The notes under the pieces: model-generated | What the model saw: only the letters and a program-made list of their open reading frames with translations | Told to the model about the DNA's origin: nothing | Database searches by the model: none | DNA from: Bryum argenteum | Taxonomy: Eukaryota; Streptophyta; Bryopsida; Bryales; Bryaceae | Length of the DNA: 64,000 nucleotides | Assembly (NCBI GenBank): GCA_037043015.1 | Contig: CM073323.1 | Coordinates: forward strand, 62,001-126,000 | Direction of reading: 5' to 3' | Translations under genes and position numbers: made by a program | In this document: positions 3,001 to 54,919 of the stretch, in pieces | Position numbering within the stretch: the stretch's first letter is position 1 | How the letters are laid out: every line of letters starts with the position of its first letter

Positions 3001-3325
3001 GGGTCAACGTTGCACATGACGGGACGACCTTGCACTCCGACACGGACGTTGCAACTACCGGATGAGATTGGATGACAAAGACTTCAACACGATCTCTGCG
3101 AGGATTGTAATATCCAAAGATACATCTTTCTCGACGATGGGCTCCATGTGCACAAAGATAAGACAACTTGCCTACATCATCCATGACTTCTTCCTCAAGG
3201 AAGATCGAATCTAATCCCAAATTGAACTTTGCAGACAACATTCTAGCAGTTACGACAATGCGACCATCAAATTGCGGTAGTACACGTAAAGGGGCACGCC
3301 CAGCATCTACTCGAATCGTTGCCAT
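1..3325 (-). pseudogene. MULE-like transposase, element 1 copy (3' end outside window)
   Basis: DDE transposase expected to bind the terminal inverted repeats and move the element. Start chosen at the ATG at 3325 (MATIRVD); upstream codons in frame lack an ATG. Exon 1 is 3325-1268, with donor GTACG. Exon 2 starts at 1148 after a TTGCAG acceptor and runs off the left edge. N-terminal half: Cys/His zinc region including CAGHLRC and HIGYHTHPV, resembling WRKY/GCM1-type fingers. DDE core: MFDHVKR, then GFMADSAQAN, then a region ending HFRYWQWGGYMNM. Exon 2 has EMPMCNLSETVH and later NLTTREILTLEDAG, both matched in element 2. One in-frame TAG (1592-1594) replaces the Trp of element 2 right after ADSAQAN; the frame is otherwise open on both sides. 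MULE family assignment is by motif pattern, not by search. Confidence 0.8.
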
Positions 3326-4003
3326 TCGTGAGAAACACAAGACACAAACAAGGCATGCAACAAGCACTACTTAGACAAGCTTGCAGTTCATTCGAAACCG
3401 GTTCAAATTTAGAATAATAGTAGCTGACGAGGATAATAAGTGCTATAAGTGGTAGTACTATGAACTATCGAAGTGGAGTCTCCACTGACATTGATGGCCT
3501 TGGAAGCATACTCAATGGACGTCATTCTTGTAAACTGACAGATCACAGAAATAAGCATGGGCCGGAAAAGGTATTAAAGAGTCTACGGAAAAAATAGAGG
3601 ATGTGGGATACTATGGCTCAATAAATCCCATGGGCGGTTTCATGTCCTCTTCAGCCATTGATGGCCCGGTATGCAGAGAATAAAATATTGAGCCTTTCGG
3701 ACGAAGACGGCTACTTTGAAGTGTTCACCCTTAAATGACAAGCCCCTCTGAAAATACAGTGGATACCAAGCCCGAGGGGCATGCACTGACGATTACGGGT
3801 TAATGAGAGTTAAGTAAGAGAGACGGCGGTTTGTTACAAGGACGCTTCTTAACTAATTAGAAAACAACGCCGTTTTTTTAAGGAAACGTGCATAGAATTA
3901 AAGGTTTCTGTCCACGTAGTGTCAGTAGACATATAGGACACCTCCTAGAGTTAAGAAACCGAGCATCTGCCGGGCTTTACACATCAGGAGGTATATCTTA
4001 GTG
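3326..4003. promoter_or_regulatory. Divergent intergenic region, element 1
   Basis: Lies between the leftward transposase and the rightward small basic ORF, so it should hold both promoters. No coding sequence is evident. The equivalent spacer in element 2 (44920-45480) has a clear TATA box; here I see only AT-rich stretches around 3840-3900 and no convincing TATA element. Confidence 0.4.
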
Positions 4004-10076: not shown

Positions 10077-10374
10077 AGACGAGATGTGCACAGAGCTTCA
10101 CGGGAACATTGTGATCCGTTCCCTAAATGAAAGCACATGTGCAATAGGTGGTGGTTGGTGCTTGCGAGATGCAGACAATGAGAGTCTCAACATGCCACAC
10201 GTGGCATCGTCATTCCAATTTCTCCTTGAGCTACGAATCCCGGCACAGCTCTTCGGAAGACTAGCTGCACGTCTCGGAGGAGCTCGATTGCGATGTCCCG
10301 GCAAAGGGGCTGTTGGGTATTGCTATTACACAATCTCATTTTGTATCAACTTGAATGTATGTGTTGTTTTGCAG

Positions 10375-13300
10375 ATGGAGGAATAGTTGGTGATGACGCC
10401 ATGGAAGAGGCGGAGGGCAACGTCTCAAAGGAGTTCGACGTTGCGAATGAAGGATGTCCACCTGACGAGTTCCCTGCTCTCGAGGTCGAGGAAGAAGAGC
10501 AAGCGGAAGCTGACATTCTATCGGAGGCCGATGTGAACAAGGAGGTGAATAACCTTGTTAGTTCGGAAGCTGCAAAGAGTGTCTCGAGAATTCAGCAGTT
10601 GCGCTTCCAACCCGTTCACAAATCAAGGATGTGCATCCCGCTTTGTCGAATGTTGGGGCTGCCAGTTGTGAGGCCAGCGATGAAATCCGACATAGCCAGG
10701 CTCCAAGATCACTTTCGAGATGTCGGCTACGTTGAAGGTCAAGGAGTCTTTTACGTTGCGATCGAGAACGACAACAAAGAACCAGGCAAGGTGAACACTG
10801 TGGACGTGACGGCTGAGATCATCTCCTCGTGGAGGCCTAATTGGGTGAAGGTAAATGCCGAATTTGAAGACTTCTTGCAAGCCGATCCTGATCTTCACAA
10901 GTTTTCAGGGAAAATGTTTCACGTTTGAGACGGGAACCACCGGTTGGAGGCTTGGTACCCATACATCAACGCAGAGAAATCCCATGATCCATCATGGCAT
11001 TTCAGGGTCGATTGCATCTTGTTAGACCTCAAAGGTGACAACATGACGGCGTTGACGGCGCTCCACGAAATAAACTGGTAAGTGCTAATTCCAACTTGTT
11101 CGTGCTATTTATCTTGCGTGTGTATTCGGCCTCGTGTTGGAAGCTGGATGTTTCAGGTGACTTTCAATAAGAACATTTTGTTGTAATTTGTTCCATGTGC
11201 AGGCGAGTGGAGAACAGTCATGTGCAGTTGAACCTTGTGCACAAGCTGTACCGGGTGCAGAGGATTGGGCGGCAAGAAGTGTCTTACTTCAAAGGGATAA
11301 TTACACCGGAGGAAGAAGCAGCATCCAACCTCAAAAACCTTACGAAGTCCACCTGGTTTAAGCTCACTGCCAGTGCACTTTGCAACGTTCTGTATCAGGT
11401 ACAATTCTCTTACTTAATTGACACCAAAATTTAATTGAATGCTCAACTTACATGGGAATGTTTTGCAGACGGAGTTCGCTCAAGAAGCAGCGAAGGCTGC
11501 CTCAGATTTCCGGCGTGATTGTCAGGCAGACAAATACACAGCAGCAAGTATTCACGACGCAGTCAACAAACGAGTGCAAGAGAAGAAAACTTCCCTTCTG
11601 AGCGAGTTGAGGAAGCAGTTACCGATTTGCCACCCCGATAATACTCCGAGGTTCCTCGAACTCATCAAGGAGCATTACGAGACGTTCCGGGAGATTGAGA
11701 TGTCCCAAGAGAAACTGTGGTATTTTGCGATCTCAGCGATGGACATCGACACGAAGCTGCTTTGGTTGGAACGTTGGAACAAGCCGCCCAAGTTCCGCGA
11801 AAATCAGCGGTTTCCTAAGGTTGGGTTCAGTGAGCAGACATACCTCAATTTCCTGAACAAGGCGACGTGGTGGTCTCAGGTATCCAGTCCATCAACTTTG
11901 CAATTCTATTTGGTCTCATTTGCTGCCATATTTTTTCTAACGATTCTTTGTGGTGTGACTTACGCAGTTATCCATTGCTGTTGCAAAGGATTTCGAGGAC
12001 GAGATGGACATGGGAAAGCAAGAGGTAAACTACAACCCACCAGGTGTAGATGAGCCGGTCGACACAGTGAGCGAGTATGTCGAGAGGATGAGAATTGCGT
12101 TATGGGAAAACGCATTTTTCAGGGAATTCTCGATCAAAGACAAGGAGCTGAACAAGGAAGGGGGAGGGAAGGGCGTTCACAAGAACAACCCTCCCGAGAA
12201 GCAGCCGAATTTCGAGAAGGCATCCTCTAGAGTGCTATACCGGTATGTGAAGCATGTTCTTCTCCCGGTGAAGGCAATTTCAAAGTCTCCAACGAGCTTC
12301 GTGAACTACACGAACACGAGCGATGAGAAATGTATGTATACTGCTGCGCAGCTCAAGGAGTACAAGAAGCAGCACTATGTACCATGTGGTTGGTACATGG
12401 ACATGCCGAAGGGTATGTTTCCTGAGTTTGAAGAAGACCTTCTATCCAAGCTTGAGCCCGAGCTTATGAAGTTGAAGGCAGTCATCGACCTTGACGACAG
12501 TCAGGCCACCACGAGCCGGCGTAAGCGCAAACCCCGTCCTCCCGTGGTGTCCCCTCCTGTTGGCGCCCCTCTTGATGCGAAGATTGACAACGATAATCAA
12601 GCGATTCCGAAGGACGCTGCTCTCGAACTCGATAAACGGGCCAACTCTCCAGTCGACGCCGATATGATCATTGAGGACCACTTTCAGAGCAGTCCTGCTC
12701 ACAATGAACGTGGTCCGCTACAGAAGAAAGCCCGCCTCGGTCATTTTTCAGGAAAGTCCTCTTCAAGCGCTACTGATACCATGATTGCAGCCGAAAGTTC
12801 CATGCTTCCTTCTGCAATTCGTGGTATGATGCTTGATATTCATCCAATAGGGGCTCCTACTGGCGCACGTGTCAAAATAATCAACGACACGTTAGTGCGA
12901 TGGTGAGATCTGAAGAAAATGACAGGCTCTTTCCCTGAGGAGTTCGAGATGGCAAAGAGCTTCCTTTCTGAGGTAAACAACTTCTGCTTTGTTGAGTTCC
13001 ATTACATCCATTCAAATGAGCTTTTGCTCTTAATTGATATCTTTGAATGCCAGGTTTCCGTAGGTCGCCGCTTGTATTTTGAAGGCGTCCCCGAAGTCGG
13101 TCGGCCTGGCATCGATTTGATGCTAGCGGAGTACCCAGATGGTCTACGTGTTCCGGGAGTCTCGGATCCCGAGCACCAGATTCCTCGTTGGAATTCAGAT
13201 CAAGAAACATTTTTGAAGACAATCGCGGAATTTGCGTACAGGTACCTGCATGACGACGGGGCGATTGTAATCTTTTACCCGGATTCGTATGCCGTGCATA

Positions 13301-15726
13301 AGAAGATCGAGGCGTTCACATCGAACTTCAACCTCAAGATTGCGCTCGAGTGGAACATCCTCAACTCGCTTCCTCTATGCAGCCCATTGAACCCTGCACG
13401 ATCGGTAAGTTCGTCAATTAGTTAGCTTTTTACTTCTGTGATGAATGTGTTAGTCATTGTACTGAAATATGACTCAAGAATTGGTAGAACCTGGGCTCCA
13501 TCTGGAATTTGCATGGTCTAGTTTTGGAATTTGCCGGGAATACCTTGAACCTTCAACAGCACCGGCAGCCCTCAAGCCCGGCAACCTGTCATCGTTCGAG
13601 GTGACTGAAAACCAGCTCGCTGCATTGCTGTGCCGGTGGCGGCGTTGTCGTTGTAGTGCCGTTCTCCTGGAATTTCCCGCAGTGCCTGGACAGACCGTAG
13701 GCAATCCCGAAGAGCCTCCAGTCTATCGAAACAATTGAGTCCCATCCTCCCGGCAGCGTTGAGACTCGGCCGCCCCAGCATCCTTGAAGCCCCGGCAGCC
13801 TCAGGAACCTTGAAGCGCCGGCAGCCATTTCGGGCATCGATCGTGATGAAGAACGTCGCTATGAGCCTCGGCGGGTCGCGTTGTTGGCATGGCAGTGCAG
13901 GAAATTCCATCGGGAATGCAGTCCCGCGAGCTTGTCGTCCCGCCAGCTCCGGCAGTCTTGGAGCGCCGGCAGCCTTGAAGCCCCGGCAGCCCCAACTGCC
14001 CGCCTTCGCTGACCCTCTGCCGGCGTCGGCGTTGCTGTGCCTTCGCCGGCAGTGCCTTCGCCGGCAGTGCCCACTGAGGCCCCGGCAGGTCGTTCTCAAC
14101 CCCCTTCGTCCGGGGTGATGCATTCGTTCTCCCGACAGCCCCGGCAGGACTGAAGCGCCGGCAGCCGTGGCAGCATCAAAATCCCAAGGCCGTCTACTCC
14201 ACCTCGCTGTGTCCCTCTGCCGGTAGCGGCGGTGTAGTTGCAGTGTCGGAAATCCTTCTTGACACCCCGGCCGTGCCTTGAATGGTTTGAGCACACCGTA
14301 TTGGTTCCTCTACAGTCCGGCGCTGGTTTGTCTCCGCCAGCTCTGAAGCCCCGGCAGCTCCTGCTGCCCGTGCACCCACGGCAGATCTCAAGTTTTTCGA
14401 TGCTTACGCAAGGAGCGCATGACTGTCGACGTGGAACGCGCCGTGGGCGGCGGTGTGGGCTGCGGTGTGGGCTGCGGTGTGAGCTTCGGTGTAGGCTCCG
14501 GTGTGGGCTGCGGTGTGGTCACCCGGATCCATCAAGAGCTTCTGGTGCAGCATCACGTCGTTCAACCTTGACTGTTGTAAGAGGAAGTGCCGGCTCTCCG
14601 GAGTACTCTCGAGTCGCACCTTCGGCTGACCAGTTCAGCGCTGTTTGTGGCAATGAGCAGTAGCACCACCAAGACTTCCGTTCTCTTGCCGGCGTTGACA
14701 CTTCATTTGGCACTGACGGCCCTACTGCACATTTTCCGAGCAATTGGCATTCTTGTTGCAAGTTTGTATTAAAGAGATGATTGACTTTTTATTATTAATT
14801 GCTTTCCGTGTGTCAGTACTAAATCATATCCTGTGATTTTCTATGATGTGCAGACCTATATCTCCAAGGCCGTCGTTATGGTGCGGGCGCTGCCATCTTC
14901 TTGTCGTCGTCAGCCTATCCCGCTTGACATCAAACTCAATCCATTTACACCAGCCCTTGACCTGAACAAGCAAGACATGCTCTTCAACGCCATCGACGAG
15001 CAGAGTATTCTTCGGAGGAAGTCGGATGGCAAGCCATGGCGGGGTCCGAAGCAGCGCACTGAGCTTTCCTTCAAGCCCCTGATTTATGGAATGTGTCCTG
15101 AGCGGGGCTTAGTACTGGACTTTGCAGCTTCGACGGGTTAGTGATCGGTTGCTAATTCTAATGTAAATTTGCTTCTTTCTTACTCAGAATTTGTCATTGA
15201 ATTCAAAGAATGAAACTAACTTTGACTCTTTTTCTGATCGCAGGCGCATCAGTACAGGCAGCGCGGTCTCTCAACCGCAACATTCTCGCTCTGGAGGGGG
15301 ACCGCGAGATTTACACTGAGGTTCTATTACCACTGACCGTCCTAGCGCTGCCACCACCAAACACACCGATTGCATTAAACGCAGACAATGGCGACGACTC
15401 TCCAATCCGGGCTGAACATCGCGATGGATTTTGTGAGTGCGACTCAACTGCCTGATTGATTTTTGAATTTGATAAGTGCTTCTTTCATTATTCTAATCAT
15501 CTTGTGTGTTTTTTTGTGCAGTTTAGTGAGTGTCTTTGATAGACTCTCATCGCTTCAAATTAGTCCTCCAGTATCTTTTAGTCTTCCTTCGTACGCAGAA
15601 GGCTTAGCAGAGGCTTACGCCATAGTTTCCTCAGACTCCTCTCCGGATATTGTTCCGCGGTGGCCTCGTTATCATCCGGGGGTGAAGCGCTACTTGGACT
15701 TTAGCGCCTCGGAGTCTGACTCCTGA
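10375..15726 (+). pseudogene. ParB-like domain fused to N4/N6 DNA methyltransferase, element 1 copy
   Basis: Multi-exon gene with GT-AG junctions: 10375-11077, 11203-11398, 11469-11879, 11968-12972, 13054-13404, 14854-15136, 15244-15432, and a last exon from about 15527 to the TGA at 15726. The first exon has a ParB/sulfiredoxin-like segment: a basic HKSRMCIPLCR stretch, then DGNHRLEAW, then FRVDCILLD. Exons 13054-15432 have beta-class methyltransferase order: a motif IV-like GIDLMLAEYPDG, then GAIVIFYPD, then DGKPWRG, then SAM-binding motif I DFAASTGASV. DPPY is not intact (EYPD), so catalysis is doubtful. A basic, Pro-rich low-complexity linker (RRKRKPRPP) sits between the domains. In-frame TGA codons lie at 10926-10928, just before DGNHR, and 12904-12906. 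ParB-methylase fusions are known in phages and bacteria; presence in a plant transposon is unusual. Confidence 0.75.
13405..14853. repeat. Intron filled with CCGGCAGC-type repeats and a 12-bp tandem array
   Basis: This intron of the methyltransferase gene is about 1.45 kb in element 1, while the matching intron in element 2 (after VPKPKE) is under 100 bp. Bases 13540-14360 hold many copies of a GCCCCGGCAGCC-like phrase in both orientations. Bases 14443-14520 hold about six copies of a 12-bp unit, GTGTGGGCTGCG, with small variations. Confidence 0.75.
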
Positions 15727-34445: not shown

Positions 34446-34819
34446 ATTACTGTTACCTTTTACATTTTATGTTACTTTTTACTTCTATACTGTACTTCTA
34501 CTTCTCCACAGTGTTTTTGAACGTTGAGTTTGTGGGTTTGTGAAAATGCACTTGTATGTTGCAATTTGAGCTTAAACACAACACATTGCAAACTTTTTTG
34601 ACACATTTGAGTTCAACACTTGAAGATTTATGACAAATTGTGAAGTTGTGAAGTTGTGAGGTTGTGATCTTGGACGTTGGAATTTACAAACTTGGAGTTG
34701 CAAAATTGCAAGTTCAAGTTGTGGAGATTGAAATTGCAAGTTTTCAAGTTGAAATTGCGAGTTTTGAGGTGAGATTGCAAGTTTTGAAGTTGAAATTTCA
34801 CAAATTGAAGTTCACCAAG

Positions 34820-35461
34820 CGCGAGATAAAGTGGCGCGCGATTCTGCGTTTCACGAACTCCGCCCGCGAACGAACGCAAGCAAGCTGCGCGCGATCGCGT
34901 GGTTCTGCGTGAGTTGCGCATTCCAGCTCGCGCAGAGAATCGCTGATCGCGATTCTTGCGCGCGCGGTTCGTTCGTTCGCGGCGCGCAGATTACGTGAAC
35001 GCAGAATTGTGCCGATTGATGTTCCTTTTCTTTTTTTTTTCTTTTTTTTTTTTCAAAATTTAAAACCTAAATTTATTATTCTTTTGGAATGATGATTGGT
35101 GAAGCTTAGTGCATTGGAGGTAAACTTCTTGGAGTGGAGCAAGTGGTGGTAAACTTCTTGGAGTGGAATCTCTTGGAGCACAAGTCTAAAAGGTATTATC
35201 ATTGACTTTACTCTTGTGATTTTAAAAAGATTGAATTTAGGATTTATAGTAGGATTTTTTTCCTACACTAAATCCTACTTTATAATAATTTTTGAAATCT
35301 TTGTTGGATTTATAGGGTTTAGAATAGGATCTTTGTTATCCTATAATAAATCTTATATTTGTGATAACCTTCGTTGAAATTTTGTAAACTTTATATGATT
35401 TATGATAGGATCTTCATCATCCTATCATAAATCCTACTTTTTTTTAGTGCCTTTTTAGACA
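34820..35461. other. Helitron leader, non-coding
   Basis: GC-rich start (34820-35000) with CGCGCG and GAACGAACG phrases, then AT-rich DNA with several copies of a phrase like AGGATTTATAGTAGGAT up to the first RepHel ATG. No gene seen. Confidence 0.35.
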
Positions 35462-40644: not shown

Positions 40645-40655
40645 CCATTTGCGTA
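40645..40655. repeat. Left target-site duplication of element 2
   Basis: CCATTTGCGTA directly before the left end of element 2; the same 11 bases lie at 54909-54919 directly after its right end. MULEs usually make duplications of 8-11 bp. Confidence 0.9.
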
Positions 40656-40667
40656 GGACGTTGCTAC

Positions 40668-40712
40668 CGTGTGAGCGTTGAGCGGTGAGCGGTGAGCGGT
40701 GAGCGGTAAGAT
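40668..40712. repeat. Left terminal inverted repeat with TGAGCGG array, element 2
   Basis: GTGTGAGCGTTGAGCGG followed by three further TGAGCGG units and TAAG. Its inverted partner is at about 54841-54897. Confidence 0.9.
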
Positions 40713-41599
40713 TTAGAATTTTTAGGGCTGAGTTTGTATTTTTAGTAAAAATATTTCTAAAAATAGTTATTTTTTATAAAAAGAGAATAATTTTCGAATA
40801 TTCTTGGGACTATTCGAATATTCTAGACTTATCACCGTGGATTTAATGACCCAAACCCGTGGAAATAAGGCTTAAATTCCTTGAATTTGTGAGACTTGAG
40901 CTACAAAACTCGACAGTAAATCACAATTTTTTAAATGTGAAGAGGTTTTTAAGGTAATATTTCTAAGTGAATAGTACTCCGAGTTAGACAAATTGGCAAG
41001 GTTTGCTGTACATGTAGATACTAATATAATAATTTATAATAAGTTGAGAAAAAATATCACATATAGTGTGGAGCACCCAATCATAAGACTAACATATAGC
41101 GTATGTAGATGAGGAGATATAAGGCATTCTAATCTATAGCATGGTCTAGGATTCCTCCCTCCGAAATCTTCTTCACCTCGTTGAAACTAAGAGTGGCCGC
41201 GTGGATGAAGAGATCGGATCCGGATCAAATTTGCAAACCAATACCGTGATGAAGTATAGGTGCTTGCACGGTCGATATGGATCTCTCCGTCCTAACGAAG
41301 AAATTGTTTTCTTGAACACCGGCATGAGCAATCCGGGAATTTACTAATTGAAAGTCTATAAACCGCATCCGAATCGGACTCCAAATCTATGATACACCCA
41401 AAACCAGTGTCATGGGATCATGGTCACCCTCGTAATTTTGGCCTGCATTGACGCGGCGACTCAATATTCTTCATGTGCTTTGAAGTCATAGCTGGAATGC
41501 GTTTCATGTTCTTCGATCTTCTGACCTAGGGAACACGTCCGCTTCTCCGGATCGGAATATGGGACAAGTCTCTTGGTGGGGCAAGATTATTGAAAGTGC
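40713..41599. other. Subterminal region, element 2
   Basis: AT-rich near the end, with no independent gene. The part nearest the transposase (41150-41600) may hold its last, badly decayed coding sequence and 3' end. Confidence 0.35.
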
Positions 41600-44500
41600 G
41601 GTTCGTAGGAAGTCGTTTCTTTTTGTGGTAGTCGAAAGCCCGCATTCTCCAACGCCTCCATCTCATCACGTGTAAGGTTAGTCCCTATCTTTACAGCCAT
41701 ATTGAAGGAATAGGGGTCTGCATCCGGCTTAGAGAGAATGGTTCAATCCACTTGCGACGATGACCCTTTCACACACCTCTCAATATCATCTCGCACAAAA
41801 AAGAACTCGATCAATTTTTCTTGGCCCCTCTTGAGGCGTTGCCATACTCCGGTGTAAGTTGGAGCTACGGTCGCCTTCCCTTTCGAATAATTCGTGAGTC
41901 ACATCTTTTTTTACTCTTTCGCATGATACCCCAACATGCCTTGGCGAAATTCTCCTCAAACGGGCAATGTGCCACGACCTCTCGTCTACTTTAGTCTCCC
42001 CGAATAGTCACACGTTCAATACTAGGTCCAAAGCAAAGTGGATGGTATTGTCCGTAACTCTTCAACTTCATCCTCCTCATGGATAGTACTCGATTTTCAA
42101 GACAAGCTCGGGTAACCCTTCTTCCACCCGAGGACGTGAGTAGCTCAAGGTGTCGGTGTCCGTGCGTTTCATCATCGGCTCAATCGGAACATCGCCCTTA
42201 CGTTTCTTGGATCCGAACCTCGGCCCCCTCAAGGTGGGCGTCTCGGTACAAATCTTTTCCGCTCCCGGATAGTCGAAATCGCTTTGTGAGGCCTGATGGA
42301 TCGCCGGTTCGTTGAGCTTTATGGGCAAGACGAAGTAAGAGTTCTTCGGATGTTGGTCCACTACCACCCTTGCCACCTCCGTTGAAGTCGTGGTAACCCA
42401 CAACTTGGAGGAAAGCACGAACATGATCATCAACAGCTGCAACGTACAAGTCCCCACCCTTGTTGCCGGACGCTTGCAACCATTTGTTATGGATAGATTC
42501 CGCAAGGTTACATGAAGGCATCTCCGCCAACTCCTCTGCTGAATATTTATTTTCCTGCAAGGTGCAAAGACAAATGACTTAGTAACAAAAAAAGTTGATC
42601 ACAATATCCATGGCGAGTTAGACTTGCGTCACAGCAAGTCTGATCTAAAATTGATTATTATTATTTTTTTAAATGATTAATATTGATAAAGATTAAGAAA
42701 GCAGAATATTCTATACTAAAAAAGTAAATATATTTTACAGAATTATTAGACATCAATTCACGTGTATATAATAGCTACAGTAATTGTGGACTCACCAATT
42801 CCATGAAGCCACCCCACTGCCTATATCGGAAATGCCAGAATGCAAGCCAGTGTTCGAGGTGACTTAATCCAACTTCGGAGGTGGCTTGCGCCGACGCCCA
42901 CCACGCTCGGATCGCCCAGTATCTTGTCTCCGCCTCAGCCATGGTGCGTGCATCTTTGTATTGCTTACAAAGATGTCGATGTTGATCCTGCAACTCGTGT
43001 ACGATGTACTGTTTGGTGTGTTTCTCTAGGGATTGCGTCCAATGGAAGTAGCAAGTCCGCTCGTGGCCTTCCATGGGCACTTTAGGGTCTCCGGAGCCAT
43101 AAATGATCCGCACAGCGTTCCAGTTGGCCTGCGCACTGTCGGCCATGAACCCTTGAAACTGCGGCGCTTCCACTCCGTTCCTGCCCATGACGTGGTTAAG
43201 ATTCTTCCAGAAGACGATTTGAGCATCCCCGTCTTCAGACTGGAAATCACAGCATGCAATAGTTAGAATGCGGCAGATTTTTGAGTCATAAACGTGGCAT
43301 GCCATGGTCGTCCAGTTTTTGACACGCTTGACGTGGTCGAACATCATCCAAGCATGTGACAAGTCGCCCCCGGGCTGCATACGACGAACAAGGTCAACAC
43401 CGCTTCCGGGGCCGACCTCGGACATCTTGAAAATGAACACTTTGTCACTTTCATCTCTTTGGCCCGGGAACTGGTTACGTTGGATGTAAGCCCAGTTGCT
43501 GAGGCCTCGAAGTTTGGTGATCCCATCAAGAACACCGTATCTGCGCAAGTGCTTAAAAGTGGTAATACGATTCCTGACGCTGGGAGAGTTCAGCTCTTTA
43601 CACTGATCGAAGATAGGTTCTAGCTCCTGGAGGGTGAGCTTAGAGGTTACAGGGTCACCTTCTTCACGGAGAAGTAAGTTTCCGAGTAAGTCCTTGCTAG
43701 CCTCCATGACTATTTTGGATGTGGTAGCTTGTGGGTTACGTTCTACGTGCTCCTCTATTAACTCATCAATCATTTTACGTGCACATCTGTAGTCTCCGAC
43801 TTTAACAGGATGTTCGTGCGTACCGATATGCACACATGCCCTCTCTTGACTCTCTTCTCCGAATACGTAGAAAATTTTAGCAGGGCATAAAGCAACACAA
43901 ATGGGAGGTTCTTTGCAGATCTTACAGACCAGTGATGACGAAGGAGGAGGCGCTTGGCCGACCGAGAAGGGGTCCTTGGTAAAGCCCTCGAACTCCACCT
44001 CATTAACTTGTGATCTACGGTCAGGTCTTAGCAAGAATCCGCACTTGCCATTGTGGCATTGAAGATGACCTACACAGTTAGAGTAGCGGAAAGACAAACC
44101 GAGGTTGTTACTGATGTTAGTAGTCATTGTCCTGGTCCACACATGGCCGTCGTATCTTTTGTCCATCCCTTCCATAGATTTGGCTACCTTGGCAGCAGTA
44201 GTTGGTAGAATAGGAGGGAGAATGTAGAGGACATCACCATTGAAAGTGTGAGGCAGGAAAGAGACGCTATGAGTTCGGATGGAATGGAAATCTATTTTTT
44301 TGAGTATAGTTTTGTTGCGAGACATACTACCTAGTCTACGGAGCGAGGAAAGAATGTTTTTGGGTTTTACGAATTTGGACGCGGGAAGAGAAACGGGGGT
44401 GGTTCTAAGACTGTGTTCAGAACCTGAGGATGGAAGAGGCAGATTCGATGATATTCGACGGGACTTGATGGACGATTTTCTTTCATCTTCAGATGAATCC

Positions 44501-44919
44501 GAAATATCGATTCGAACTTGGAGTCCGGGTTCGACTTTGACACGAGCAAGAACTGGTACGACAGTGGAGATGGTAGAAGAACTACGGGGAGTGAGGAGGA
44601 CGGTGGAGGCGTTCATGACGGACTCTGTCAAACCATAGAGTCGATACTGACCGGGCTGTAGCTTATACATTTTAGAGTGACTCTCTAGGTCGACTGGTTC
44701 GACAAGGACGGAGTACTGGACAAGCCTAGTGTTTGGATCCAAGACATGTTTCTCTAACCACAGAGAGGACTCATCAAACCCAAAACGAATTGCTAGCCAA
44801 GACGGAGTGACTTCAGCCACTCCATCCACCCCCGGAGGAATGCAGATAGGGGGACTTAAGTCTTCAGACCTAATGGCAATGATGTCTGCAGCGGGAGGCA
44901 AGGCAGCGGAGGAAGCCAT
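41600..44919 (-). pseudogene. MULE-like transposase, element 2 copy
   Basis: Same family as the element 1 transposase. Start at the ATG at 44919 (MASSAALPPAAD). Exon 1 is 44919-42796, about 708 residues with no internal stop. It has a Ser-rich leader, zinc region CVGHLQCHNGKCGF with CKICKEPPIC and a WRKY/GCM1-like HIGTHEHPV (rough residues 280-375), then the DDE core with MFDHVKR, GFMADSAQANWNAVR and CYFHWTQSLEKHTKQY, ending FWHFRYRQWGGFMELV. After a GTGAG donor, exon 2 starts at 42554 (AEMPSCNLAESIHNKWLQ). Exon 2 is damaged: the frame changes near 42250 and decays further left, where NLTRDEMEALENAGFRLPQ still matches element 1 (NLTTREILTLEDAGFQLQQ). The long intact first exon suggests fairly recent activity. 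Confidence 0.82.
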
Positions 44920-45471
44920 GTGGTACGGGGGCGACGAAGACAACATCAACAAGTGCGCAATGAAAGAGAGTCTGAGGTGCGTTTCGAATGTTCAAATACA
45001 ACAAATTGCTGTAGAATGTTTGCATACGTATTGAATACTTATTAAACGTAATTTCTTAAAGAAGACGTACATATACCCGATACTCTGATTCGTGAGCATG
45101 ATGAATTGAAAGCACATTACCTATAATACTTAAATTAGCTGAACTGACATTATTGCATTAAATACTGACGATTAAAAATATTAGATTCGTTGATATATTA
45201 AGTAGGTGTAGAAGGTAAATTGACGGCCGCAGTCATTGTCAGAGATATAGTTGGATAATAGATGCATTCAGTAGTTAGCTTAGTAGGGGTTGTCAGACAC
45301 GGTGAAAGCATGATGTTAGGGAATACGCGATGACTGATTAGGGTTTCTTAGCCGCATAGTGGAACTTATATAATGGAGTTCACACTCATAGATCGACCTC
45401 TTCAATTGCAGCGAGAAAGCTTGGGCTTGTTAAGTGCAACGTGACAGAAGTTATTTCATTGCAAGCAAAGA
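44920..45471 (+). promoter_or_regulatory. Divergent promoter region, element 2, with TATA box
   Basis: Spacer between transposase and small basic ORF. TATATAAT at 45367-45374, in the context GGAACTTATATAATGG, is a good plus-strand TATA box about 100 bp before the basic ORF. The minus-strand promoter is not obvious. Confidence 0.5.
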
Positions 45472-45846
45472 TGGGACGAGACCGCTAGCGGTAGTGAGAG
45501 AGAGAAAAGGAAATGGGTCGAGAGGAAGAAGAAGCGGAGGGGTGGCACGAAGTTCACTAACTCTAAAGCACTGAGACGTAGTGCTTTGCGGAAGCGCGAT
45601 GAGATAAGCTGTACTAGCGAAGATCAAGAGCCTGATGGGTACGATATCTTGATCGACGATGATGTGCTACCGCCATTTAGGCGGATTATTAAGATGCGAT
45701 CGTTGAATCTCGGCAGTGTCCCGGAGAGTCTCCCGACGGACGAAGGCCAAGAAGAGCCGGAGGAAGGGCGTACAAGCGAAATAGGACGTCTTTCGAGATT
45801 GATTGCGTGGATGGCGATGACCAGGTGGTGTAGACTCTACATATGA
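45472..45846 (+). CDS. Small basic protein of the element, copy 2
   Basis: Open frame with a basic start (KRKWVERKKKRRGGTKFTNS), then SKALRRSALRKRDE, then an acidic middle (DQEPDGYDILIDDDVLPPF) and a tail ending WCRLYI before TGA. The basic patch and its place beside the transposase match the 4004-4267 ORF of element 1. There is no ATG in this frame before the basic patch; the first in-frame ATG is at 45652, with a GCG codon at 45586, so a spliced upstream start or a broken start is likely. Function unknown. Confidence 0.4.
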   Translation, partial: WDETASGSEREKRKWVERKKKRRGGTKFTNSKALRRSALRKRDEISCTSEDQEPDGYDILIDDDVLPPFRRIIKMRSLNLGSVPESLPTDEGQEEPEEGRTSEIGRLSRLIAWMAMTRWCRLYI

Positions 45847-46018
45847 GGTAATGAAGTTACGTATGTTATCAACTTGTGGATAATCGTGAATAATAAACTA
45901 GACTCAAATATGTATATGGTTTAATATAAACATGTGATGACTTGAGGGCGTAGAGGATCGGAAGAGGAAGACAATCTATCCGGAGATCAAACAAAGGTGT
46001 TTGAGGAGATAAGAGTCA

Positions 46019-46207
46019 ATGATTCGTGACGAGAGAGCGAAGCCTCTTCTCATCGTGAAACACATTATGATACAACTGATGGATTTGACACAAGTGCGAA
46101 AAGAATTAGAGGAGGTACATGAGAAACCTTACTTCTTGGTTTATTGGGAGGACTTAGGGTTGATTAAGTATACAATCAACGAGAGTTCATTATTCGGTTC
46201 GATGTAG
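46019..46207 (+). CDS. Short ORF after the basic protein, element 2
   Basis: A 62-residue frame (start MIRDERAKPLLIVKH, end FGSM) ending in TAG. It could be the last exon of the preceding small gene or chance. No family recognised. Confidence 0.25.
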   Translation: MIRDERAKPLLIVKHIMIQLMDLTQVRKELEEVHEKPYFLVYWEDLGLIKYTINESSLFGSM

Positions 46208-46439
46208 TATGCATTTTTGCTATGATATACTTTGAAGATATTTGTGCACTCAAGACAAGGTCGATATTTTGTACTTGCGGGTGCTTGTATCTATAGGTCC
46301 CGATTCGTACATGAGGGTACTTAGTTTGTACTTCCGAAGAATATGACTCACTGCGAATAATATTGATGTTCTTTCCACTTTATGCCTATACTTACGCCCG
46401 TGTAAAAAAAATGAGTGATATCTCATGTGAATATGTAGC

Positions 46440-47215
46440 ACAATTTTTACGAACCGGGTAGGTACGGATGAGTAAGATCGGGTGGGGTGCGGTCGGCTCG
46501 GGTAGGGTCGGTGTTCAAACCGAGTATTGGGAGGGTAATGACCGGGTAGGCCCACTTATTATGACCGGGAAGGCCCATTTGTTATGACCGGGTAGGCCCA
46601 CCGTTATGACCGGGTAAGGTCGGTGTATGTGCAAAGTACCGGGAAGGACCGGGAGTGCGTACCATGTCTGCCGGCGAGGGCCGTGGTTAGGACCGGGTAG
46701 AGCCGAACTAAGTACCCGTTCACCGGCAAGACCGTAAGTAAGTAGCAAGAACCGGGTTGGGCGGGGGTAAGGTCGGGGTAGGTCCGGGTAAGTACCATGG
46801 TACCGGGGCGGGGACCGAAGTAAATAGCAAGTACCGGGTTGGGCCAGGGTAATGACCGGGTAGGGCCGTGGTAAGTATCGTAGTGCAGACAGGACCAAGG
46901 TATATACCATGTACCGGGTAGGCGGAGTTAGGACCGATAAGATCCGGGAAAGTGCGGGGTAGCGGGCAAGACCAAGGTATGTAACAAGTTCCGGGTAGGC
47001 GGGTCCGGACCGGCAAGGACCGGGTATGTGCCGGGTGCGGGTAGGACCAAGGTAGGTTCGATGTACGTGGTAGGCGGAGTTCGGACCGGTAAGGGCACAG
47101 TTAATCGCCAGGTATACGGAAAGGCGGGGTTAGGACCGGTGAGGGCCGGGATGCGCGCCGAGGGAACCGCGGGGACCATGGTAGCTACGGGATACGGGTA
47201 GGACCGGGTGTCAAT
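46440..47215. repeat. GACCGGGTAGG minisatellite, element 2
   Basis: About 775 bp of degenerate tandem repeats built on GACCGGGTAGG/GGTAAG, with a period near 26-30 bp at the left (TTATGACCGGGTAGGCCCA) and more variable to the right. Short minus-strand frames rich in Tyr-Pro-Gly here are products of the repeat, not genes. Confidence 0.85.
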
Positions 47216-47815
47216 AGGGAATCTCGCCGGACCGGTGGAGAAGGTGCCCCGATGGCAGTCCGCATTATTGGCTGTCGCGCATCGATCGTATCAGCAGTCC
47301 GCATTGAAGCCAGTTCCCCGTCCGCAGCCGCCGTAGGAACGGCATTGGTCGCATTATCTTCACTTCCATCGGCGCGCTGCATTCTAGCTTCTAAGAGATC
47401 CATCGGAATCAAGTGGCACACCATCGTGCGCAACCCATTTACTGATGCGTTGTGGAGGCGATCCCTTCGGGGACGACGTTCGTGAATCTGGCCAGAGAAT
47501 GGTCTCTCTGCCGCACTGGCGATGTTTCCAAAGGAGGATACGACAATCGGCATTCAATAATCCTAGCTGTTGATTCCTGATCTCTGTCGCCTTGCTCAGT
47601 GGGTAGTTGGAAGCGTGACATATTTAGAATTGATGAGGAATCTACGCTGACAAAAGCAGAATCGCTATGGCTGTTAGTGCTGAAAGCAGAATGCCGAACT
47701 CACTGGAGAAATTGATGAATTTTTCCACACACTCGATTTTAGGACCGTTGTTGGTTTACTTGTGTGTTTTTCGAATTGAAGGAGAGAGGTCTTGAGTTCG
47801 AGAGAGGAAGGAAAA

Positions 47816-50800
47816 ATGGCAGACGAACTTTGCGAACAGAGAACACTACTGCGAGAGGAGGCCGAAGTCGAACTGCAAGGAGAGAAGCAAGTTGTGCAGC
47901 CAGAAGAAGAGCAAATCATGAAGGATCAACAGAATGTGAGTTCTCAATCATCGGAATCAAGGTTCTTTTCTTCCATTTACAGGACGGATCCATATTGGGG
48001 CCAAACAATGAAGACTCGGGGCGGGTTAGAATTCTCCAACTCCAGAAGCATTAAGGTATGATCTACAGAAAACCCTACAGAGGACAAGTCAGTATCAAAT
48101 CCGACCATTTCATGTTATTTTTTGCTTCCCTGAATTTCTATCATACTTTTCTTGAGGATCTGTGCGTTTGTATTCAATCTATCAACGTGTTGTTGGGATG
48201 GGCCATCTCGGGAATGCCCTGGCGTGATCCTCCAGCTTCCGCAGTGCAGGCCATCGGCAATGAAGCGAGAGGCTGAGCCCCTGGCATGAGCTCGGTGAAC
48301 CGCCCGTGGCGAGTCTCGGCCGTGTCGGACCGGTCCGTGAGCCTGGCTGCTTTGAGCCTCAAAGGGGTCGGTGGTGTCGTGGTGACGGTCTCAAGGTTCT
48401 TTGTAGCCCCGGGATTGTTGGGGGTGGCACTGCTTTGACCCCCGGTGTGGTGTTGGGCGATTGATGTTTTTTGAGAAGTGGTCGGATTCGCTCCGGACTT
48501 GCGTCGACGCAAATGAGCAAATCCGACCATTTCATGCTTTTTTTGCTTCCCGGGTTATTCATCAAACTTTTCTTGAGGATCGTGCGTTTGTATTCAATCT
48601 ATGAACGTCTTTGTTGGGATGGGCCATCTCGGGAATGCCCTGGCGTGATCCTCCGGCTTCCGCGATGCGAGGCCATCGGCAATGAAGCGGAGGCCGAGCC
48701 CCAGCATGAGCTCGGTGAACCGCCCGGTGGCCGAGTCTCGGCCGTGTCGACCGGGTCTGAGCCTGCCCTGCCGAGCCTCAAAGGGGTCGGTGGTGTCGTG
48801 GTGACGGTCTCAAGGTTGCTGTAGCCCTGGGATTGTTGGGGGGTGGCACCTGCTGTTGACCCCGGTGTGGTGTTGGCTGATTGATGTTTTTTGAGAAGTG
48901 GTCGGATTCGCTCCAGACTTGCGTCGACGCAAGTCTGGAGCAAATCCGACCATTTCATGCGTTTTTTTGCTTCCCGGGGTATTCATCATACTTTTCTTGA
49001 GGATCTGTGTGTTGGTCTATTATTTTTGGATTAAATGATCGTGCTTGCCTCCCTTAAGATGCTCTTTCGAGATGCGGGATTGTTGCTCCATTAAATCTCG
49101 AGTGCATAGTTTTACTTTTTATTTCATTTGTATAAGTATATTTTTCGTTCTAATAGTTTTCATTTCTATGGCAGGATGCACAAAAGCACGCACGTGTTGT
49201 TGAAGAAGAAGAATCGGACGCGGATAGCGATCTTTCCGCTTTGAGGGTCCATGTCCAAGCTTATGTAGAGTCTCGTCGATTAGCAATACCCCTGTCCGCT
49301 GTTCCCGAAACGCCCTCTTCTGCAACTCCTGTCCGTTGTACTTTTAGTGACGGCGTTGATCGGATTGCACGAGGGACTTTCAAAAGACCGAATTATTATG
49401 CAGAGGCGAAGGCGCGTCGTGCCCAAGCGATAGCAATGGCTAGAATTGAACCACGTCGTTCACCACAACTTTCAACCAAATGTACATCGAAATGGATATA
49501 TGCTTAGAGTATATGAAATATATGTGAACCTGTGCCGTATGTGACAAATATATAAATCTAATGATATCTAATTTTCATTCTCATAATTTCTTATTTTCTT
49601 GTGCGATGTTGTACTTGGTTTTTGGATTGTCAGATGATAGCATGTGAAGTGCCTGACCTTCGAGATGGACAAGACGATTCTCTCACTCCAAACAATATAG
49701 CCATGTCGGCGCACGATGCCCATGGTGGGAGTCCCGATGATAACACGATTCAGGCATTACAACAAATTGTTGGAGTTCCAGACGATGCGATGATAAACGA
49801 CATTCATCTCGGAACTGAAGATCTGCATTTACCGTCTCGAGACCATGACGGACTTCAGTCTTTTTCGGATGATGAAGAAACTACATTGCCAGGAGGTGTC
49901 AACGTTGGAATCATTCACATGCCTCAACATTTGCAAAACAAGGACCCTGAGTGGAGTGCGAACGAGATGCGCATGCTCCACAAGAGTGATTCCATAGCTA
50001 TCATCAACAGGTTACGCTACAAACCTGTCAAGAAGTCTCGTATGCTAATTCCGCTTTGCCGCCTCGTTTGTTATCCAAAGGTTCGCCCGATCTCAGAACA
50101 AGACGTCAGAAAACTTGAGAACGAGTTCAACAAGGGATACCGCGAAGGCGATCGGGTAATGTACGTGTCTCCCTTTGACAGAAAAGGCCGTGAAAAGATA
50201 GTTGACATTGAAGACGAACTCTGGAAGAACCCGCTTTGGAAAGCCGCAAATGAAGAGTTCGAGAGTACGCTGCGGACTGATCCAGATCTTTGTAACCTTT
50301 CTGACAAATATTTCTATGTCTACGAAGGTAACCACCGTGTTACAGCCTGGATGCGCCATATCGAGAGGTATCACAAGAATGATCCCTCGTGGTACATTTC
50401 GGTTGATTGCATCGTACTCGATGCCCGTGGTGAGAGCAATCTCCTCCTCGATGCTATGAACGACATTAACTGGTAAGTGAATGTCGCATTTTTTTATAAT
50501 AAATATCTTTCATGATTTCGTCATATACCATTCCCCTAATCTTTTATTCTATGTTGTAGGTCCACTGAACATGATCACGTCGAAGATAGTTTATGTGCGA
50601 AACTCCAACGCATGAGGAAGTTTGGCAAGTTGAAACTCGAAGATTTCAAGGACCTCATCTCTCCCGAAGATTACAGGATCTGTAAGAACGCCAAAGCAAA
50701 AAGGGAGACTTGGTATCCCGTCACAATAGACGTTTTTGTGAAATTCCTATACGCGGTAAGCTCACTACATATGAGCCGGACTCCTCTTCATCATTTTTTA

Positions 50801-53800
50801 TAAATCAACTTCTAATTTGTTTTCCGGTTGTCATATAGCGGAAGTTAGCGAAAAAAACATCCGATGAAGTCGAAGCTACGTACTACGCCACGGTTCCAAA
50901 AGACAAACAAATGGACTGGTGTATGGAGTGCCATGGACAATGCAATCAAGGCTGAAATCAAGTCAATACGTTGGAAGAACTTTGACAAGATGGTCGTTGT
51001 GGCCAATATCAAATTGGGGAAACAATTTGCGAAAGAGGTATTGATGGCTTGGTTCATCGTTTTACATCTGTATATTTTCATTTATGTTCTATTGCTCAAA
51101 TCAAAACCGTGAGTCGATGTGCGATTAATTCTCATTACTGACCAAAACCGAAACCCGACATGACGCTTGATCGCTTACACATGGTCGCCACTACCAATGT
51201 TAACTTTGATTTCAAAGCTAAGTGGGCGCAGTGGTGGTGGAACTCATCAAACGAAGATCGACGTTCGATTCGCTTTCAAAGATCGCCCTATGAAAGATAA
51301 AGCATTGGTTGCATTTCTACATCGTGCTTCTCTTTGGCGCGCGGTAACTTGCTTACATATTCCGGGATTACAAAATTTGAGTTTTTATGTTACTTGGAAT
51401 ATTAACGTATTTCCTGTATTCTCAGCTTGAGCAATCACTAGAAAGTGAATTGCAGAATCTGGTAGACAACGAGAACCTCAACATTGAGTGGTCTAGTGTT
51501 GTCCAAAAGCCATCGGCCTATATCGAGAAGTGGAGGTTAATCTTATGGGAGAAGGCATTCGGAAACTATCTTGCTCCAAACGCAAGTCCAAAGTTCATTA
51601 AAGGCTCGGATCTTCATAGAATTACTGGAGGCAAAGCTACAATTAAGCGGCTTGTATTCCGGTATGTATTCTTTTTCCTATAAAATTTTATAGATATTCC
51701 TGCAACATATTCAATTACCCCTATCTAATTTGTTTACTTTCATGTAGGTACTTAAAACAAGAGCTCGTTGCTAAGGGAGCATTACCTTCGTTCTCCATTC
51801 ACATGGAATTCGAGGACATTTCAGTGACGAATGATCCCCGCAGCTTTTTTTCCTCAGCCCAACAAGAGCGGTTCACTAACTCTCAATTGACGACCGGTGG
51901 ATGGTTCTTTGAGTGCGGCGACAAACTACGTCTACAAGGAGGAGAAGCATCTCTTTCAAACCCGCTTCAAACCCACCGACTCCGCACCGATGGACATTGA
52001 CGACGATGATGACGATGACGACCTCTCCATTTTACCGGATGGACTGATCCAATCTCTTCTCCTTCTTCACCAGTTCCAGGCGCCCAAGTCTCGTGCAACC
52101 AGGAAGCGACGCAATGCGGTTGCGGAACTGTAGTGGATCTCCGGCAAGAATCGGAAGAAACTCGCTCCCCTCCCGAAGACATTGCGAGCCGTAAGATGCC
52201 GATCGACTCGAGGCTTGGCGGAAGCAACAAATGCGAATCGACGCAATGCAAGATCGACTCGACTTTCTACAGTGGACTTACGAATGCGGGATCCCCTCCT
52301 CAATCGTTCACCGTGGACCATAACTCACAGCAGTCTCCGCGTCGCATCAGCCAGCCATTGTTTCCGAAACGCCCTCTTCCGAAACCCAATCACATTGGTA
52401 GCAGCTCGTCGTCAAAAATTTCGGTGACTCTGCCAATCTATCTCGAGAAGGGCAACATTGGAGACTTGGTTCATCAGTCGTCGAAGACTGCAAAATGGGA
52501 TTCGCAAATCCTCGATATCGTCGAGCACATTAGAAAGGTATTATTTCTTACATTAGTCATTTATAATCTCCTACTCATAAATCTTACTTGTAAATCTATT
52601 TGCCACTTTCTAATAGTTGATTTGTATCTCAGATTGGCAAAGACCGTAAGTACCCGTGTTCGGCGATGGAGTATGAACCCAAGCATCCAGGAATTGATCT
52701 CATTTTTGCAGATGCTCCCGAAAACTTGCCTGTTCGGGTGTGTCTCCAACAAAATTCCATCCTGGAATCGGCGTGACAAAACCTACTTTGAGAGCCTCTT
52801 CGTGTTTGCCGCTTATCATTTGACGGACGTTGGAGCCATACTTCTCATGCATCCAAAATGTCGTAGAATCGAGCGTACTCTCGATTCTGAGTCTGCAACA
52901 TATGGTTTTCGTGCAGTTCGAGACCGGTGGGGATATAATCCCCTTCCTATGGCCTCTACCGTACCCAAACCGAAAGAGGTGCGTAATGATTCCAATTTCA
53001 AATTTCACGATTCATGATTATTTCCGACTATGCTTCTATGTTAACGTATATTTACTTGTGTTTTGCAGACTCACTGCTTCCACATCAAAGTCTATGTTCG
53101 TAAAGAGTATGTTTCGAAGTTCCAGACTCGGCAAGTGGCACACGATACATGGTGGGGTGTGGCAATCGTGCTGATGATGAAAGACCACCTCGGTAACTGC
53201 GAGAGAAAAGAAACATTACGTTATCGTCCGGACGGTACGCCGTGGCGTGGCTCACGAGAGAAGGACCCCTCCTTCATTCAGTGTTTCGTTGATTGTCTCA
53301 CGGACGACGGAGGTATAGTCTTCGATTGGAGCGCTAGTACAGGTAATGTTTCCGTAAACACTACATTCGAGTTTGTTTATACACACTTCGCTTTTCTAAC
53401 GTGGGCTTCTGTTTTTGTAGGTGCATCTGTAATTGCTTGCGCGCGCTCCAACCGACACCTCATCGCCATGGAACCTGACGAAGAAATCTTTGATGGTGTG
53501 CTAGCCGATTACAAGAACGGTCCTCCCGGTGATGAAGAAAGTGGAGAATCTGCCCCTCCCGCGGATTATGACTCTGACGAACCGGTCGTGAAGAAGCCAC
53601 GAAAGTTCATTGGTGCGTAATTCCATCTTGTATTCTTTTTCTGGATTTTTATTTAGCACTTACAAATCTGTTGGGTGACTTTCTTTGCAATTTTAGGATC
53701 GCAGTCTGAAGGAGCGATTGACTCGCAACGCTCATCTCTACAAGAGCCCTCCATCAAAATTCACCCTACCATCGTACGAGCGACGACTTGCTCAAGAGTT

Positions 53801-53852
53801 TGTTCAAGCTCCATCTCCCATACTCTCTCGACACTCCACGTCGACGTTATAG
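47816..53852 (+). pseudogene. ParB-like domain fused to N4/N6 DNA methyltransferase, element 2 copy
   Basis: Candidate 5' exons: 47816-47935 (MADELCEQRTLL, acidic) and from 49175 (DAQKHARVVEEEES). ParB exon 49634-50472 is intact, with KKSRMLIPLCR, then YVYEGNHRVTAW and ISVDCIVLD. Later exons: 50560-50755, from 50838, to about 51346, 51427-51662, from 51750, 52133-52540, 52634-52978, 53070-53341, from 53421, and a last one to TAG at 53852 (FTLPSYERRLAQEF). Methyltransferase part: GIDLIFADAPEN at the motif IV place, GAILLMHP, DGTPWRG, motif I DWSASTGASV. Frameshifts lie near 50915, 51290 and 52740. Several introns fall at the same places as in element 1, showing common descent. DPPY is again not intact. 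The 51662/51750 intron is absent from element 1. Confidence 0.75.
48085..49017. repeat. Tandem array of a 422-bp MITE-like unit inside an intron
   Basis: Unit starts (AAATCCGACCATTTCATG) at 48097, 48519 and 48942, so 2.2 copies at a period of 422-423 bp. Each unit starts with CAAATCCGACC and ends with GGTCGGATT, so it carries terminal inverted repeats. Where copies 2 and 3 meet, 48900-48951 forms a 52-bp near-perfect palindrome with one mismatched pair; 48911-48940 is perfect. The third copy is cut off after about 75 bp. Confidence 0.85.
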
Positions 53853-54840
53853 CAATAGTGTGCTTAAGTTTATAGACTTTGAGGCCGATCGTGTGATCGG
53901 CACTTTAATGGTTCAACACCTTCCGCCTAGAGTGTGATTTGTTTTCCGATAGGTACTGGACATGGTACTAGAGTATTCGTTTACCTCGATCTATTATCTT
54001 TGCTATAGCATGTATTTGTGTTTTTCAATATATATGGTTTTATATATTTATGTATTGTGATTATCGTTTATAGCTTAAGCTACACTAAGTGTTTCAAGTA
54101 TCACTTTAAGTATCTCACTACAATGTAATCTAAAGCCATGCTTGATCAGAATGAAGACGTCGGCCTAATTTTGATGTAACTTAAACTCCGGTTTCGATGC
54201 ACCGGTGTATGTAAATGCTTAAGTTCTAAACTAAATGCAGACTAAAAGTTTGAAAAGGTCTTTTTTTATTTCCATTGGAGTGATTGATTTTTGCCAATGT
54301 TGGTAGGGGCTATAGTGCAGTATTTGTATAGCTCGGGATAGCGACTTTAAGACGCGATTGCAACGCTCAAACGAGGCCGAGGAGAATCGAACTCGGACCA
54401 CCGCAATGCCACGTGAATGTCTTTTCGTACATCTTACAAGGAGACACGGAACGACGACGTGTAGTGATAATTTTCGGATAATATATGCCAAGCATTTACA
54501 TATAATTCTAACAAGTGCAATACGCTATTGATGACGTCGACCCTAATTAGTCTGTAAAGCTTATTGTTGATAAATTAAACTTATTGATTACCTAAATGGA
54601 TCATCCCAAATTTCGGTTTATATTTTGGATATGATTTGAATTGTGTTGGTTACACATGATGATGCTAGTCCATAATTTAATTAACTTTTATCTAAACTTA
54701 CAAGTGTGGATAATTTTTGAAATATTGTGTGACCTATGTCCACGGTTTTGGGTACTTTTATGCCTAAAAATGACCATTTCAAAAATTATAAACCACCCAT
54801 TCCATGGTAATAGGGCCATTAACTTTAAATTTTTTTTTTC
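53853..54840. other. Spacer before the right end of element 2
   Basis: AT-rich, no gene supported. The corresponding part of element 1 holds the ADD gene; I find no ADD cysteine pattern here on the minus strand. GATGACGTCGACCCTAATT near 54530 matches a phrase near 18605 in element 1. Confidence 0.45.
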
Positions 54841-54908
54841 CTTACCGCTCAAACTTTACCGCTCACCGCTCAGCGCTCACCGCTCAACGCTCACACCGGT
54901 GGTTTCCC
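54841..54908. repeat. Right terminal inverted repeat with CCGCTCA array, element 2
   Basis: Plus strand shows CTTACCGCTCA, several CCGCTCA/GCGCTCA units, then CAACGCTCACAC and CGGTGGTTTCCC. It is the inverse of the left repeat at 40668-40712 with one or two differences in the paired part. Confidence 0.9.
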
Positions 54909-54919
54909 CCATTTGCGTA
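54909..54919. repeat. Right target-site duplication of element 2
   Basis: CCATTTGCGTA, identical to 40645-40655. Confidence 0.9.

Follow-up and report, generated by a model that had tools for sequence, protein, structure and literature searches.

A transposon family in Bryum argenteum with a ParB-like and methyltransferase-like cargo gene under purifying selection

Several described systems resemble in part the locus analysed here. The VANDAL elements of Arabidopsis are plant DNA transposons that encode a transposase and a second protein, VANC, the targets of which are often tandem repeats; such repeats were reported upstream of VANA21 and within introns of both VANC21 and VANB21 (PMC5735166). 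Fungal DNA transposons carrying TET/JBP dioxygenases (PMC12730594) and retrotransposons of dinoflagellates and charophytes carrying cytosine methyltransferases (PMC5890265) are also on record, and the bacterial protein Bce_0392 joins a ParB domain to an adenine methylase (PMC5512222). Here we describe an element of 14,254 bp that lies at positions 40656-54909 of a 64,000-nucleotide stretch of Bryum argenteum DNA (hereafter the window; contig CM073323.1, positions 62,001 to 126,000, or C3:62001-126000 in our contig numbering). It holds a transposase-like gene on the minus strand and, divergent from it on the plus strand, a cargo gene with a ParB-like and a methyltransferase-like part. The element belongs to a large family of DNA transposons that move as units in a land plant and make 10-bp target duplications, and the cargo protein is under purifying selection across the element lineages, with a ratio of nonsynonymous to synonymous substitution rates (dN/dS) of about 0.1.

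The genome searched for copies comprises 258.8 Mb in 25 contigs. The termini have in common a 46-nucleotide inverted repeat, 93% complementary, which includes GTGTGAGCGTTGAGCGG as well as a tandem array with the 7-mer GTGAGCG as its unit, and the element is flanked by a perfect duplication. The first-pass annotation, made from the window sequence, was right that the ends are well defined by inverted repeats and a duplication, but put the right end at 54908 and the duplication at 11 bp. The supposed eleventh base, a C, belongs to the element at the right, being its final base, and matches by chance at the left; the true length is 10 bp. Eight left-end loci were examined, seven of them together with their right end: the window copy, C3:4959271, C11:2553490, C3:23377224, C4:5285448-, C5:8233799- and C8:1997338- (the eighth is C2:15337402). 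All seven two-ended copies have perfect 10-bp duplications, each different from the others, as expected of a DNA transposon that moves as a unit; the copies other than that of the window (14.3 kb) measure about 13.8-16.4 kb. Cargo exons are present in every one. The ParB-like exon was found in the window, C3:4959271, C3:23377224 and C8 copies (with several stops in the last two), and in the C11 copy at 97.2% identity over 460 bases, and the methyltransferase exon was found in the C4 and C5 copies with one stop each. Hence none of these copies had the same terminal inverted repeats without the cargo, the situation that had been named as evidence against a cargo-bearing element; as the copy lists are partial, there may be cargo-free copies elsewhere.

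In the genome-wide searches the hits scored were a subset of the candidates, and the counts are lower bounds. We scored 40 copies of 777 candidates for the first 295 bases of the element, 40 of 541 for its last 308 bases, 130 of 1228 for the ParB-like exon, 150 of 876 for the methyltransferase exon and 62 of 1749 for the transposase, the other copies of which were 88-94% identical. A 24-base word from the ParB-like exon (up to 3 mismatches) gave 327 genome matches versus none for the reversed pattern. The spacing of the cargo to the right end was constant: a listed right end could be paired with 29 of the 130 ParB hits, in 25 cases at 4.79-5.04 kb, and with 31 of the 150 methyltransferase hits, in 29 cases at 1.84-2.01 kb. 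Together with the cargo in all seven two-ended copies, this spacing bears out the earlier view that the methyltransferase gene belongs to the element. On the transposase side, at least 21 of the 62 transposases have a ParB-like exon 3.5-10 kb away on the expected side and strand, versus none on the opposite strand and no more than one in five of the six shifted controls. These pairings drew on the 130 scored ParB hits plus 100 of the 327 word matches, two overlapping lists, so that the pairs too are lower bounds and the result says nothing either way for the remaining 41 transposases. The sixth control, a shift of 20 kb, gave 8 pairs, more than the other shifts, in which the ParB-like exon is correctly oriented at a distance of 23.5-30 kb; these may be elements with nested insertions. 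Among the matches listed, contig C1 (44.1 Mb, 17% of the genome) held 58 of 130 ParB, 85 of 150 methyltransferase-exon and 17 of 62 transposase hits; as a guess, C1 might be a sex chromosome. The LOB domain is plant-specific, and 22 LOB-domain matches in the genome versus none in 14 control genomes support a land-plant host, the controls being prokaryotes as far as named, which exclude random matches only.

Purifying selection was seen in both parts of the cargo gene. For the ParB-like exon (203 codons) dN/dS was 0.097 when the 23 intact copies were used and 0.123 with all 31, and the pairwise median was 0.25 at dS below 0.05 (9 pairs) and 0.05 at dS 0.8-2 (46 pairs). For the methyltransferase exons the ratio was 0.067-0.103 in E8 (0.10 among near copies and 0.07 versus copies L086 and L087) and 0.114-0.128 in E9 (0.11 and 0.13, respectively); values for the other cargo exons ranged from 0 to 0.21, with saturation of E3 in the comparison with the distant copies. 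Six of nine copies were usable for these cargo-exon values, and copies with open exons alone entered these counts, which lowers the estimate. The transposase gave 0.17-0.22 between subfamilies (four pairs, each including L084) and 0.57-1.47 within the subfamily of the window element (six pairs), and therefore the method detects decay where decay is expected.

The window copy itself is a decayed copy. Its ParB-like exon is open, but in the exon with motif IV a stop follows shortly after DAPENLP, and several other cargo exons are frame-broken. Hence the element is complete, as had been claimed, in its ends and structure but not in its coding capacity. The window copy has about 95-98% identity to three sister copies, from which numerous small insertions and deletions separate it. 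In the transposase exon the numbers of frame-breaking insertions or deletions and of substitutions were 7 and 40 in L076, 17 and 57 in L077, 25 and 71 in L078, and 3 and 152 in L084; the many in L076, L077 and L078 reflect either fast decay or assembly error, and part of those in the window copy could be assembly error.

The organization of the cargo gene was read from L086, which has open exons: a ParB-like part comes first, then four middle exons and a long linker, and the methyltransferase part last, with the junctions placed by eye. Motif IV precedes motif I, the permuted order of the beta-class N6/N4 DNA methyltransferases. A profile of three families, A (that of the window element), B and C, matched CcrM over profile positions 17-229 (E 1.2e-5) and DpnA (E 1.9e-5). 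PF01555, with a cut-off of 26.7 bits, scored 31.8 bits with family C, 26.7 bits (E 6.4e-6) with B and 15.6 bits, below the cut-off, with A, which phage DNA methyltransferase families matched at E 2e-4. When the methyltransferase part of family C was searched against phages (E<=1), 396 records were found; of the best 20, 19 carry a methylase or methyltransferase annotation and one has none. The annotated N4/N6-type domain therefore holds, with a beta-class fold, and by these alignments it is a real CcrM relative.

The catalytic motif of beta-class enzymes is (D/N/S)PP(Y/F/W), and the known enzymes require the DPPY residues. At the position of DPPY in CcrM, all nine A-type copies read have DAPE, B has EYPD (one copy) and C has DTPF (one copy), so that the catalytic motif is absent from all three families, as is the FxGxG of motif I. 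As DPPY is replaced by DAPE or EYPD, ordinary adenine methylation by the cargo protein is doubtful, and with it the earlier suggestion that the protein may modify DNA.

In the ParB-like part GNHR, including its arginine, is invariant in seven of seven aligned exon rows, and the ParB-like family phrog_1033 matched six of the seven, weakly (best E 0.0036). No Pfam ParB-type profile matched the seven rows at E<=5, a PDB search with the alignment gave no match at E<=1, tblastn of the exon against phages gave none at E<=1, and no relatives were confirmed in viral_contigs. The predicted model of the exon was poor, with a predicted local distance difference test score (pLDDT) of 40.3. Hence the annotated domain keeps its motif and a weak profile match but found no counterpart in Pfam, the PDB or phages. 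Upstream of it lies a small open reading frame, either a gene of its own or a 5' exon of the cargo gene, which ends at the same place in both other copies read (C5e and C7e).

A second, diverged and decayed element, B, occupies about 1-16 kb of the window with the same layout. Its transposase is 40.8% identical to that of the window element over 701 residues. Both elements, diverged as they are, have this two-gene layout, which therefore probably predates the split of A and B. The third methyltransferase family, C, which may belong to a transposon or be a host gene, is represented by C4:20498341 (L095) and C7:9878472, both above the Pfam cut-off, its motifs having been read in the C4 copy alone. 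The features of both elements are collected in Table 1. For the window element, the transposase, small open reading frame and fusion gene of the first-pass annotation were all seen; element B and an iteron array are to be added to it.

Table 1 Positions of features of the window element and of element B, numbered from the first base of the window
Feature	Position	Strand	Remarks
Left target-site duplication, CATTTGCGTA	40646..40655		Identical to right copy
Left terminal inverted repeat	40656..40714	+	Starts GGACGTTGCTACCG; GTGAGCG tandem array
Transposase-like exon 2	42201..42578	-	Candidate catalytic E (NLAESIHNKW), placed by eye
Transposase-like exon 1	42778..44919	-	714 residues open; candidate D528 (MMFDHVKR), D594 (FMADSAQ) and C-x2-H, by eye
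Iteron array, one-directional CGGGTAGG	46450..47230	+	Between the divergent genes; kept in L085
Small open reading frame, exon 1 (MADELCEQRT...)	47816..47935	+	Donor GTGAGT; splice sites by eye
420-bp tandem repeat, 2.2 copies	48096..49013	+	Within intron of small open reading frame, cargo side
Small open reading frame, exon 2	49175..49507	+	Basic stretch ARIEPRRSP; stop at end
ParB/Srx-like exon	49634..50472	+	IPLCRL ... YEGNHRVTAW ... VDCIVLDARG; open in window
Cargo middle exons E3-E7	50560..52531	+	Approximate span; frame breaks in window copy
Methyltransferase exon E8	52633..52978	+	Motif IV position (IDLIFADAPENL, DPPY -> DAPE); frame broken here
Methyltransferase exon E9	53069..53342	+	Motif I position (GGIVFDWSASTG) at its end
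Methyltransferase exon E10	53421..53612	+	Remainder of motif I / II (ASVIACARSNRHLIAMEPDEEIF)
Right terminal inverted repeat	54851..54909	-	Finishes GGTTTCCCC
Right target-site duplication, CATTTGCGTA	54910..54919		Identical to left copy
Element B transposase	896..3370	-	One stop between two open stretches; further exon below 1340
Element B ParB-like exon	10230..11078	+	One stop ahead of DGNHRLEAW
Element B methyltransferase exons	12907..15316	+	Motif IV EYPD, motif I LDFAASTG; insertion between

The transposase-like gene has DDE-type motifs that were assigned by eye: D528, D594 and a glutamate in exon 2 form a candidate triad, with CYFH (C-x2-H) between the second aspartate and the glutamate. 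Candidate aspartate and glutamate residues of the triad were also seen by eye in element B, the glutamate within NLSETVHASW, and L084 has the candidate glutamate as well. Exon 2 of the window copy shifts frame near its end, where L084 and element B remain open. The element had been called MULE-like. MULE/MuDR elements make target duplications of 8-11 bp, and the 10-bp duplications of the seven two-ended copies and the inverted repeats with their 46-nucleotide arms agree with that group. However, of the 74 genomic matches to PF10551 (MULE transposase) at E<=10, comparison by eye placed none within element B or any of the 62 scored transposases, and hmmscan of the transposases named no family for exon 1 of A (E<=1) or for B (E<=5). 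In an hhalign comparison against five MULEs taken from this genome the second aspartate and the C-x-H were in register, at E 0.6 versus 0.36 for an unrelated control. Because PF10551 fails and the profile comparison is not significant, the element has no firm MULE assignment and membership is unsupported. The predicted transposase model was poor (pLDDT 36.3). KDZ transposons, which carry Pfam KDZ/CxC domains, were considered as well and found no Pfam support (exon 1 of A at E<=1; B at E<=5).

The array between the divergent genes adjoins the start of the cargo gene and is likewise upstream of the transposase gene. Its ten CCGGGTA motifs (mean 0.6 and maximum 4 in 500 shuffles) all lie on the plus strand, the minus strand having none. 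L085, part of a diverged copy with 78% identity in the aligned intergenic part, has the motif seven times on the plus strand and not on the minus strand, in the matching place.

Given these results, we tentatively take the cargo protein for a regulator or anti-silencing factor that the element encodes and that reads the element's own iterons, a proposal we put somewhat short of an even chance. We favour it because the protein is needed, because it combines a ParB-like part with an altered methyltransferase, and because its gene stands beside an array that is also upstream of the transposase gene. As we infer its action, the protein would be the element's own DNA-binding epigenetic regulator, would bind the one-directional iterons in the upstream region common to both genes and would spread or recruit there, and the region would be kept free for transcription, much as VANC does in Arabidopsis VANDAL elements. 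In families A and B the methyltransferase part would serve mainly as an S-adenosylmethionine-sensing or base-reading module with changed chemistry, and family C, with DTPF, might still methylate. The escape from silencing proposed earlier is thus strengthened by selection and the iteron array, while the role itself stays inferred.

Several observations weigh against this reading. The dN/dS of about 0.1 says that the protein is needed and leaves its function unspecified, and the ParB copies were the best protein matches, which lowers dN. The ParB assignment is itself weak. The array is not universal among copies: L081 has three motifs on each strand, L079 and L083, in which the transposase was expected at that place and not found, have two and four scattered motifs, and the intergenic stretch of element B, which is full of other repeats, has no ACCGGGTAG at one mismatch or fewer. 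As a guard against choosing the motif after the fact, the most frequent 7-mer of the array was counted: it occurs 11 times versus a maximum of 10 (mean 4.1) in 300 shuffles. As this is barely above the shuffles, the argument rests on the CCGGGTA count and its conservation in one diverged copy.

If the protein were instead an active N6-adenine or N4-cytosine methyltransferase, the element could mark its own or freshly excised DNA with N6-methyladenine or N4-methylcytosine and so escape silencing or steer transposition. The homology to CcrM and DpnA, the selection on the methyltransferase exons and family C, which exceeds the PF01555 cut-off and in one copy has a near-canonical motif IV, all speak for such an enzyme, but with DAPE for DPPY throughout the A-type copies, EYPD in B and FxGxG lost in all three families we hold it unlikely. 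The cargo could also have a part in transposition: the ParB-like part could nick DNA or load on the ends with the transposase, the methyltransferase part helping only in DNA binding or base flipping. This would fit the cargo in both diverged elements of the window, the invariant arginine of GNHR, the GTGAGCG arrays at the ends, which could be binding sites, and the report that Bce_0392, with its ParB domain and adenine methylase, nicks DNA (PMC5512222). An array between the genes better fits a regulatory site than an end site, and we think an accessory of this kind rather improbable.

Captured genes are frequent in plant MULEs, and the cargo might accordingly be a passenger, a gene of host or bacterial origin that was captured a single time and has no function in the element. 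A dN/dS of about 0.1 over dS values up to saturation, the presence of the cargo in two elements with transposases 41% identical, and its retention in all seven two-ended copies disfavour this explanation and leave it very little room. The regulator that we favour could also be taken further, as a prokaryotic-type ParB-methylase turned self-recognition system that finds its own iterons and governs the chromatin state in every copy, the methyltransferase part (DAPE or EYPD) being a reader or an enzyme of new chemistry. We consider this extension fairly unlikely; were it true, a transposon would bring its own epigenetic control to a plant genome.

Other features of the window lie outside the element. 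A PIF1-type helicase piece is found at 37530-38447 (PF05970, E 9.7e-19) and a Pif1-domain match below the cut-off (18.3 bits) at 29919-30677; both are perhaps Helitron remains. Two long open reading frames on the minus strand at 58284-60886, one with a P-loop-like SGTGKS, look Crinkler-like by eye and had no Pfam match at E 0.01. At 33600-35000 the repeat TTTACTTT occurs up to 20 times per 800 bases. An Rfam scan of the window gave no match.

Transposons carrying chromatin or DNA-modification factors are test cases for selfish DNA versus silencing. A cargo that is prokaryotic in type, numerous and under selection lets the question of escape from silencing be posed directly, and the departure from DPPY common to the families raises the question of what role a methyltransferase fold plays once the motif normally used for catalysis is missing. 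Mobile elements are mentioned in reviews of eukaryotic adenine methylases. That mobile elements take up DNA-modification genes is known; no paper with the present combination was found in the open-licence literature, there being no plant transposon with a ParB-methyltransferase gene among the matches listed in open-licence PMC papers (subscription papers and bioRxiv were outside the scope).

To our knowledge VANC has no methyltransferase or ParB-like part. It has DUF1985/DUF287 (PMC5735166), neither of which appeared in Pfam scans of the cargo exons other than E3-E5. In other respects the VANDAL elements are close to the one described here, in that a plant DNA transposon encodes a second protein besides its transposase and has motif arrays within the introns of that second gene as well as upstream of its transposase (PMC5735166). 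The fungal transposons are likewise DNA transposons with a base-modification enzyme, but the enzyme is another one, on the demethylation side, the hosts are different and ParB goes unmentioned in the main text (PMC12730594). The dinoflagellate and charophyte elements also captured a DNA methyltransferase, once in the green lineage, but they are retrotransposons and their host-derived C5-cytosine enzymes were shown to methylate CGs (PMC5890265). Bce_0392 has the same two kinds of domain in a prokaryotic protein (PMC5512222), whereas the plant cargo has introns, resides in a eukaryotic DNA transposon and has an altered catalytic motif. Finally, the cargo is like CcrM (PDB 6pbd) in domain order and over a long alignment that includes IDLIFAD..P around motif IV, but has DAPE, EYPD or DTPF in place of DPPY and a motif I without FxGxG.

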